From Stentor roeselii (lineage: Eukaryota; Ciliophora; Heterotrichea; Heterotrichida; Stentoridae), in contig RSEH01000149.1 in assembly GCA_006503475.1 (NCBI GenBank), positions 55,304-119,303 on the forward strand: a DNA stretch of 64,000 nt. The letters are read 5' to 3'. Shown in pieces: positions 1 to 2,198 of the stretch. A model generated the notes under the pieces. It made no database searches. It was not told where the DNA came from and worked only from the letters and a program-made list of their open reading frames with translations. Positions within the stretch are counted from its first letter, which is position 1. Each line of letters starts with the position of its first letter. The translations under genes and the position numbers were made by a program.

Positions 1-198
1 CTATTATTAAAGAAAATATTAGAGAAACTTTCAAATCTTCAAATTTTCAATTGAATGGAAAAATTATGAAATTATTATAAGCTATCAGAAATCGAATCAT
101 CTCTTCATGTAATTTAGTTGATTCTTGATTTCTATTATTAAAGAAAATACCAGAGAAACTCTTAAATCTTCAAATTTTCAATCGAATGGAAAAAAATT
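1..198. repeat. Imperfect direct repeat, two copies of about 66 bp
   Basis: Bases 1 to about 66 reappear with a few substitutions at about 132 to 198. Both copies begin CTATTATTAAAGAAAATA and run through a shared AAATCTTCAAATTTTCAA block. The second copy ends just upstream of the ATG of the receptor-kinase gene at 216. It may be a local duplication of that gene's upstream region. The left copy touches the window edge, so its true extent is unknown. Confidence 0.8.
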
Positions 199-215: not shown

Positions 216-2198
216 ATGGAAATCAACTCAAATCTACTTATCCTTCTCTTCTGCATCGGAGTCTTATCAGAAACAATCACAATCCTAACCCTTTATTTTC
301 AACTAACTATCAGAAGCCTTCGTAAATTTCCAGGGATCCTAATAACCCTTCAATGCATTTCTCAAGTCTTTTTTGATCTTCACTGGTTTTCCTTACTTCC
401 AACGATAAAATCCGGGTTAAAATCCAATAGTTTTGATTTTTGCTACTACTGGGGATTTGTAACAATGTTTTTTTACTTTCAAGGGTATAACTATTCAACT
501 TGTCTTGCATTTGAAGTGATTTTGAAAGTAAAAAACGGTGCAAATCTTTCTTTTAAAAAGCGATTAATCATCTATCACCTAGTCTCAAATTTACTTTCTT
601 TAATATTTTGCATTCTTATCTTAGTTGACGGTGGTTTTGGAGAGTCAGCGATTGGAACCTGCTCAGTTGCAGACAAACTCATAACAAATTGTTTCGAATT
701 CACTCCTTTTGTGCTTAACATTCCAATAATATGGTTTTCTGTGATTTATGCACTGGTTCACATTGAAAATAAATACAAATCAATTACAATCAACTATGTC
801 TTAATCGTCGCTTCAGTTTCAGTCACCTGGTTTTTACCAACATTCATAAAATTAATTTCAAATTTCGGTCTAAATAACTACGATTTAACTGTTTTCGGAA
901 TAATCATTGGAACCACTTCAGGTTTCTTTGTAGGTCTATCCAGACTTCTAAATAAAAAAGTCATGAAAGAGATCAAAAGTGTGTTAATCAATAACGAGCT
1001 CAAAAATTTTAATCTAAGAAAAGAAAAAGTTGAAACAAATCCAAAAATGCGAAAATTAATAGAATCCATGGATAGTTTTTCAGAAGACTACGATTTTTTC
1101 ACTAATTTTTTCGAGTTGATCAGTCAAAACGTAAGAAAAATTTAGAAAATTTCATTAATTCTGTTAGCCTTGATCATAAAAACCAGAAAAAACTTAGAAT
1201 CCGAGACAATAGAAAAACATCAAAAGACGATAAAATTCACCCAAGATGACTTCGACATCGTGAGTGTCTTAGCAACTCAGGAAAACTTAAAAGAGTTGCA
1301 TTCAAAAGATTTCGCTTTAAAAATCTACAAATCTCAAACTTTCTCTGAAATCATGAAGATAAGTCAAGTGAGTAGCGGAGAAATCTACTCGTAATAAAAA
1401 TTCAGTTCAATCAGCAACTTAGAAAACTTCAGAAAAATCAAAACAATGAACTCGATGCAAGGTGGCAAAAGCGAATCTTTCATATTTTCAACAACAGACG
1501 GAAAATTTATCTTAAAAACAATAAACCGATCAGAAAAGATCACACTTTGCAAGACCCTGTTAAAAAAATACCTGCAAAGGTTGAAAACCTGTGAAAAATC
1601 AAGACTTGTAAGAATTTACGGACTGTTTAAACTGCTGCCAGAGCAGCAGTACTTCATGTTGATGGAAAATATTGCTCCCAATTCAGAAAACGCTTTAATT
1701 TTCGATTTAAAAGGAAGTTACGATAATCGTTATGTTGAAACTTTGTCAGAAGCTCCAACGGGTGTGACATTAAAAGACGAGAACTTTCGAAAGCTCAAAA
1801 AGAAAATAAAAATCAAGCAGGTTTTGTTGAAGGACACCCTGGAAACCTTGGAAGGAGACATGAAAATGCTGATGGAGCTTAACATTATGGACTATTCTTT
1901 GCTTACAGTCTTTTATAATGAGGATCAGCTTGAGTCTGACTGCAACGAGCGATACTTGCTTAATGGTCGCCAAAGGTTGTTCGCTATTGGAATTATCGAT
2001 ATTTTGCAGAAATATAATCAAAGCAAAAGGTCAGAACGAGCGATTAAACGAGTGATGTTTCGTCGAACATTGAGAATGAGTTCAATTCCATCAAATCAGT
2101 ATTATGAACGAATCGTTTCTTTCCTAAAAGAGATATTCACCTGCGAAAACCCATCAAAACTGGGTAAAAATTTTACAATAAACAATCAAAATTTTTAA
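216..2198 (+). CDS. GPCR fused to phosphatidylinositol phosphate kinase (GPCR-PIPK)
   Basis: Three exons (216-1130, 1146-1390, 1406-2198) joined across two 15-nt introns give a 650-residue protein. Residues about 7-245 hold seven hydrophobic helices with a Cys before helix 3 (C76) and one in the second outer loop (C149), as in many GPCRs. From about residue 400 a PIP-kinase domain follows: G-loop-like GGKSESF (406-412), DLKGS (487-491), MDYSLL (548-553), IGIIDILQKYN (581-591) and an activation-loop segment near 606-625. The predicted role is a plasma-membrane receptor that makes PIP2 directly. Known relatives are Dictyostelium RpkA and the oomycete GPCR-PIPKs. Without the introns the gene reads as a receptor and a separate kinase, each apparently truncated. 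The ATG at 216 is chosen because helix 1 follows at once. Confidence 0.9.
1131..1145 (+). other. 15-nt intron 1 of GPCR-PIPK
   Basis: GTAAGAAAAATTTAG, phase 0. Removing it eliminates an in-frame TAG and joins the seven-helix exon to the linker exon. Position 10 is A. Confidence 0.9.
1391..1405 (+). other. 15-nt intron 2 of GPCR-PIPK
   Basis: GTAATAAAAATTCAG, phase 2. Removing it eliminates an in-frame TAA and opens the frame into the kinase domain. Position 10 is A. Confidence 0.9.

Follow-up and report, generated by a model that had tools for sequence, protein, structure and literature searches.

A seven-transmembrane receptor fused to a PIP kinase in the ciliate Stentor roeselii, one of about forty such genes in its genome

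Proteins in which a PIP kinase (PIPK) follows a seven-transmembrane (7TM) domain in the same polypeptide are by definition bona fide GPCR-PIPKs, and they are described across eukaryotes, being "numerous" in Stylonychia (PMC5784254). Among oomycetes, Phytophthora sojae and P. ramorum have 12 each (PMC3206951). Most GPCR-PIPKs carry between the 7TM domain and the kinase the motif LR(x)9GI, which is regarded as diagnostic and not as required: nine of 60 non-oomycete members, mostly from ciliates, lack it and are still classed as GPCR-PIPKs (PMC5784254). Ciliate members were described in 2013 as transmembrane type IV PIPKs with likely 5-kinase specificity, both in Tetrahymena (PIPK2a-c) and in Paramecium (15 genes); according to the same account neither the catalysis nor the substrate of type IV PIPKs was then documented in vitro or in vivo (PMC3823935), as had been the case in 2011 (PMC3206951). 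The original prediction for the gene studied here assigned the fusion to Dictyostelium and oomycetes, which do hold it, and omitted the ciliates (PMC3823935, PMC5784254). Heterotrichs, including Stentor coeruleus and Spirostomum minus, figure in a survey of 27 ciliates whose text gives the PIP5K domain IPR023610 as a GPCR accessory domain with the carrier species unspecified, and in which S. coeruleus has the most GPCRs, 123 (PMC9960496). In the main text of the literature searched we found no count of 7TM-PIPKs in a heterotrich.

The window, i.e. the whole stretch of 64,000 nucleotides of S. roeselii DNA that we analysed, holds at 216..2198 (+ strand) a single GPCR-PIPK gene composed of a 7TM receptor, a linker and a PIP kinase. 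This gene belongs to a kind of fusion already described in ciliates; what is unusual is the presence of about forty such genes in one genome. Compared by text only, it resembles TtPIPK2a-c and the Paramecium type IV PIPKs in its 7TM domain with C-terminal PIPK, its conserved catalytic motifs and its type I-like activation loop, but it has 15-nt introns of the heterotrich type and KR instead of the QK of PIPK2a in the activation loop, and its family occupies at least 41 loci, against 3 genes in Tetrahymena and 15 in Paramecium (PMC3823935). Dictyostelium RpkA, as described, also unites in one polypeptide a 7TM domain with GPCR signature and a predicted PI4P 5-kinase, yet it is single-copy in D. 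discoideum (PMC3206951), unlike the at least 41 loci found here. The oomycete GPCR-PIPKs, again compared by description, share the architecture and the organisation in a multigene family; LR(x)9GI is present in all 223 oomycete members studied (PMC5784254), whereas none of our 35 full-length family models has it in strict form. Finally, the 7TMs of the choanoflagellate GPRch1 cluster by published description with those of alveolate and other PIPK-carrying GPCRs, but GPRch1, unlike the window protein, has no kinase (PMC12716839). The features of the gene are the following.

216..2198, + strand: whole gene, 7TM domain, linker and PIP kinase, 650 aa when spliced (joined translation, Pfam PIP5K, paralogue alignment)
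216..1130, + strand: exon 1, 305 aa, with the 7TM domain, helix 8 and the start of the linker
441..443, + strand: Cys76, start of TM3, proposed disulfide partner (in 33/35 family models; the two without it also lack Cys149)
660..662, + strand: Cys149, strand of ECL2, proposed disulfide partner (in 33/35, absent from the same two models; strand 149-151 in the structure model)
1119..1172, + strand: linker helix equivalent to LR(x)9GI, residues 302-314, split by intron 1 (IS..AL at the aligned columns; helix 295-324 in the full-length model)
1131..1145, + strand: intron 1, 15 nt, phase 0, with an in-frame TAG at 1143-1145 (same column and phase in 9/35 family models, window gene counted)
1146..1390, + strand: exon 2, linker plus the beginning of the kinase N-lobe (36 identities over 80 residues aligned with the paralogue C419; divergence smallest at codon position 2)
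1391..1405, + strand: intron 2, 15 nt, phase 2, with in-frame TAA TAA (same column and phase in 8/35 family models, window gene counted)
1406..2198, + strand: exon 3, PIP kinase domain and stop (phmmer and Foldseek matches to PIP4K/PIP5K)
2034..2036, + strand: Glu597, type I (PI4P 5-kinase) specificity residue in the activation loop (aligned with KKLEH of PIP5K1A and KKAAH of PIP4K2B; Glu in 33/35 family models)

When the segments 216-1130, 1146-1390 and 1406-2198 are joined, the length of the coding sequence is a multiple of three, its only stop is terminal, and it encodes 650 residues. The proposal of one gene interrupted by two tiny introns was thus correct, down to the exact coordinates. 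The introns read GTAAGAAAAATTTAG (intron 1) and GTAATAAAAATTCAG (intron 2). The pattern GTARN8YAG, which is post hoc since it was picked once the introns had been seen, occurs twice in 1086-1445, exactly at the two intron sites. In 500 dinucleotide shuffles of this segment it occurs 0.034 times on average and never reaches two (0/500); in the joined exons it does not occur at all. In the window as a whole, the plain GTA...AG pattern shows no enrichment at 15 nt relative to other lengths from 10 to 25.

The family provides evidence for the one-gene model. Both introns are found at the same positions, with diverged sequence, in the closest paralogue (C419, locus L037), other family models share them in column and phase, and 10 of the 35 full-length models have an uninterrupted frame free of introns. 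Furthermore, position 10 is an A in 36 of the 37 introns of our gene models, in line with the branch-point A present there in 90.9% of annotated Stentor introns (PMC9505925); our placement of introns scored positions 3, 4 and 13, the A+T content from position 3 to position 13 and the length of frame gained, and did not reward an A at position 10 as such. Together, these observations argue that the model is real. We introduced introns solely where an in-frame stop had to be bypassed, and solely at a length of 15 nt, so that their length is no independent result and stop-free introns would remain in the models. All three standard stops are used, the 48 models of the assembly ending in TAA (26), TAG (17) or TGA (5); this stop usage and the 15-nt introns point to a heterotrich of the Stentor kind.

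Chance open reading frames are excluded by the comparison with C419, to which 374 of 645 aligned residues are identical (58%) and from which the gene diverges mostly at third codon positions (0.33, 0.20 and 0.55 for positions 1 to 3). The dN is 0.31, and dS, which is saturated and undefined for the whole gene, is 1.67 over the 7TM part. Exon 2 alone follows the same pattern (0.41, 0.23 and 0.58). One might still take the in-frame stops at 1143-1145 and within intron 2, which separate the open reading frames, as the sign of two genes, one for a 7TM receptor that terminates with the TAG of 1143-1145 and one, downstream, for a PIP kinase. We give this reading almost no credence. The ten models with a single unbroken frame speak against it, as do the introns, which paralogues share in column and phase. 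Moreover, the first ATG of the downstream frame, at 1446, omits N-lobe sequence, although the N-lobe sequence of exons 2-3 is in register with the paralogues.

As for the surroundings of the gene, only three bases lie between the kinase stop (2196-2198) and the ATG at 2202 of the next same-strand open reading frame, which encodes an SMP-30/gluconolactonase-like protein (PF08450, E 5.9e-15). Given so short a gap, either the two transcripts have to overlap or the true start of the second is further inside the frame. By eye, an AT-rich stretch upstream of the gene is nearly duplicated (window 1-80 and 130-190). ARAGORN found 0 genes in the window.

The N-terminal part of the gene is, in the structure prediction, a 7TM domain with a GPCR fold. 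For exon 1, seven helices are predicted by AlphaFold, and all 50 matches listed in the structure comparison of the 7TM model are GPCRs or LYCHOS, which supports the seven membrane helices originally proposed. In the LYCHOS chain the matched range is presumably its GPCR-like part. We therefore rejected a seven-helix fold other than that of GPCRs on the strength of these 50 matches listed, in which the lack of other folds proves nothing in itself. A simple hydropathy count with one threshold also gave seven segments; it missed TM3 and counted the linker helix at 298 instead, and hence is no proof of a 7TM domain by itself. The Pfam search of the window protein matched no 7TM family. Lysines and arginines number 3, 5 and 2 in the successive intracellular loops and 9 in helix 8, and 2, 1 and 1 in the extracellular loops.

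The spliced frame predicts that this receptor is followed in the same polypeptide by a PIPK domain. Pfam finds PIP5K in the window protein (E 1e-45), and phmmer searches of the PDB give PIP4K2B (2.7e-19) and PIP5K1A (3.1e-13). The full-length structure model, which includes ten intron-derived residues, was matched by Foldseek to PI5P4K and PIP5K structures, the best being PI5P4K alpha (E 5.2e-14, rmsd 6.3). The joined protein contains DLKGS, MDYSLL and IIDILQ, the three motifs on which the claim of a full PIP kinase had been based. Its catalytic residues are Lys424, kept in 35/35 family models, Asp549 of MDYSLL (34/35) and Asp585 of IID (33/35). By the published rule, specificity follows from the second residue after the activation-loop KK, Glu in type I and Ala in type II kinases (PMC3823935). 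Glu597 occupies this position, and on this ground we rejected type II specificity; the pair that precedes it is KR and not KK, the latter being found at both columns in 12/35 models. The production of PIP2 envisaged by the original prediction can be kept as probable, and the most likely function of the protein is that of a ligand-gated PI4P 5-kinase directly making PIP2. Two paralogues, C511 (L047, C511:132715) and C161 (L048, C161:55376), have lost DLKGS, the aspartate of IID and the specificity Glu, with a receptor part that remains open, and are probably pseudokinases as judged from sequence. With two probable pseudokinases among 35 family models, kinase output would not be essential to every member.

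The linker between the two domains differs from that of most described GPCR-PIPKs. LR(x)9GI, present in most of them (PMC5784254), is degenerate in this family: residues 302-314 of the window protein read ISQNKISLILLAL, and the strict motif occurs in 0/35 full-length family models. Its absence does not by itself exclude membership, since motif-less ciliate proteins are retained among the GPCR-PIPKs (PMC5784254). A looser form, [LM][RK]..G[LIV], occupies the motif columns in four of the six models of a clade that we call A (two of C125, and C324, C433, C299 and C46), e.g. MRSNTTLCILWGI in C433; there is no intron in any of these six models. From one alignment we infer that the clade-A helix may be an LR(x)9GI that decayed from a shared ancestor.

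In the assembly of 44.4 Mb and 522 contigs, PIP5K matches are found at 55 loci at least, and at least 41 of these have an upstream 7TM domain, 35 as full-length models (window gene included) and six by tblastn with splicing unsolved (C374, C273:157261, C115, C87, C170:138992 and C170:142810). Some loci are clustered, five on C273 (157-171 kb) and three on C170. Five further loci have no upstream TM region, and Pfam detects EF-hands in four of them. Two are of the FYVE-Cpn60-PIPK type, the FYVE of C338 scoring under its Pfam cut-off. The 48 models leave out seven of the 55 loci (C197, C318, C109, C81, C128, C77 and C152), of which five, with open frames of about 1033-1453 aa, are expected to be Fab1-like, and the other two are short.

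In kinase-domain trees, built from sequences of this genome and two PDB kinases only, the window gene pairs with C419 (support 100/100) and clade A stands apart (97/84 and 99/96). In the best trees the EF-hand and PDB kinases come between groups of 7TM kinases; a single 7TM clade was not rejected (p-AU 0.377) in the tree from which C161 and C338 had been excluded as long branches. There C371, the sole remaining FYVE-type sequence (branch 3.63), falls within the 7TM kinases, which we take as long-branch attraction. The fusion to a 7TM domain may have arisen in this genome once, or independently more than once. A scan of a viral contig collection with the kinase frame returned 110 pattern matches and no relative among them.

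Some members of the wider kinase set deserve mention in their own right. The N-terminal EF-hands of L009, L010, L011 and L012 recall Plasmodium PfPIP5K/NCS and the ciliate PIPK1 group. The EF-hand PIPK has been called unique to Apicomplexa (PMC10543664), but ciliate cases had already been described (PMC3823935), and we therefore dropped the idea that those of this genome are novel. L050 (C338:178530), a Cpn60-PIPK with a weak FYVE match, has no DLKGS that we could find, and its MDYSL reads MNYSL by eye. From its sequence it is a probable Fab1-type pseudokinase, whereas the copy L049 keeps DLKGS. At L046 (C115:9405) and L032 (C170:142810) the sole short solutions at the frame changes are GT..AG stretches of 14 nt, the alternatives having 20 or 26 nt. 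These are possibly 14-nt introns, or 15-nt introns with a one-base deletion in the assembly.

None of the 19 matches to G-alpha (PF00503) in the assembly, which may be incomplete, exceeds the cut-off of 48.8 bits, and 18 of them overlap matches to Arf (PF00025) that score higher. With no match over the cut-off, the kinase itself is more likely the effector of the receptor than a supplement to G-protein coupling. Further receptor signalling is probable, given 35 matches to Dicty_CAR-like 7TM receptors (PF05462), in open frames of 225-337 aa that are too short for a kinase. Downstream, we found two PI-PLC-X matches against 15 of Ins145_P3_rec (PF08709, the N-terminal part of IP3 receptors), 11 of the latter in open frames of more than 2300 aa. 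The 7TM domain might also couple to a diverged G protein and thus have two outputs, which would be compatible with a receptor-gated kinase. The PF05462-like receptors would fit this, as does the assumption of G-protein coupling in ciliates in PMC9960496, and there is one candidate, the P-loop GTPase C74, which obtains its best Pfam E-value with G-alpha, although under the cut-off (3.7e-6, 26.7 bits). Yet this match spans only positions 5-102 of 333, AIG1 scores nearly the same (26.2 bits), and C74 passes the cut-offs of MMR_HSR1 and RNA_helicase instead; the remaining 18 matches are those overlapped by Arf. We find such a dual output quite improbable.

Read from the sequence or from prediction, the gene structure, the GPCR fold, the catalytic and specificity residues and the large paralogous family point to an explanation that we consider fairly probable, and the best at hand: a GPCR-PIPK (type IV PIPK), i.e. 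a PI4P 5-kinase that is gated by a ligand and kept at the membrane by the receptor to which it is fused. The 7TM receptor, with its N-terminus outside, would bind a stimulus, and the resulting conformational change would run through helix 8 and the hydrophobic linker helix to the C-terminal, cytosolic kinase. Already at the membrane, the latter would phosphorylate PI4P to PI(4,5)P2, which may feed Ca2+ signalling of the PLC/IP3-receptor type or membrane traffic. The gating by a ligand, the membrane location, PI4P as the substrate and the downstream use of PIP2 are the steps that we infer.

The main competitor of this explanation is a constitutive PI4P 5-kinase anchored in the membrane, in which the 7TM domain would serve mainly as anchor and sorting signal and there would be no ligand-gated switch. 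Dictyostelium RpkA indeed localises to endosomes and phagosomes (PMC3206951), a 2025 account lists the ligand of GPCR PIPKs as unknown (PMC12716839), and conservation is slightly lower in the N-terminal alignment than over the entire protein (mean column identity 24% versus 28%). However, the GPCR fold with its cysteine pair kept between TM3 and ECL2 fits sensing better, and so do some 41 diversified receptors joined to one kind of kinase. Hence, we regard a constitutive kinase as unlikely and prefer the ligand-gated one. A more daring proposition, which we put forward tentatively and with more doubt than belief, is twofold. The heterotrich would have swapped most of its G-protein signalling for about 41 diversified, PIP2-making 7TM-PIPKs in a genome without G-alpha, with some pseudokinases, maybe regulators in heterodimers; and the clade-A helix would show that this is the same fusion as in RpkA and the oomycete members, as against the convergence proposed in 2013.

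Of these results, the large family in an assembly with no G-alpha detected most deserves to be followed up. Fusions of 7TM domains and PIP kinases rank among the large receptor families of this heterotrich-like ciliate, for which no heterotrimeric G protein was detected, and they offer a testable case of receptors with a built-in effector. Their natural variants, i.e. intron states, pseudokinases and remnants of the LRxGI helix, may be useful for studying how a 7TM domain controls a kinase.
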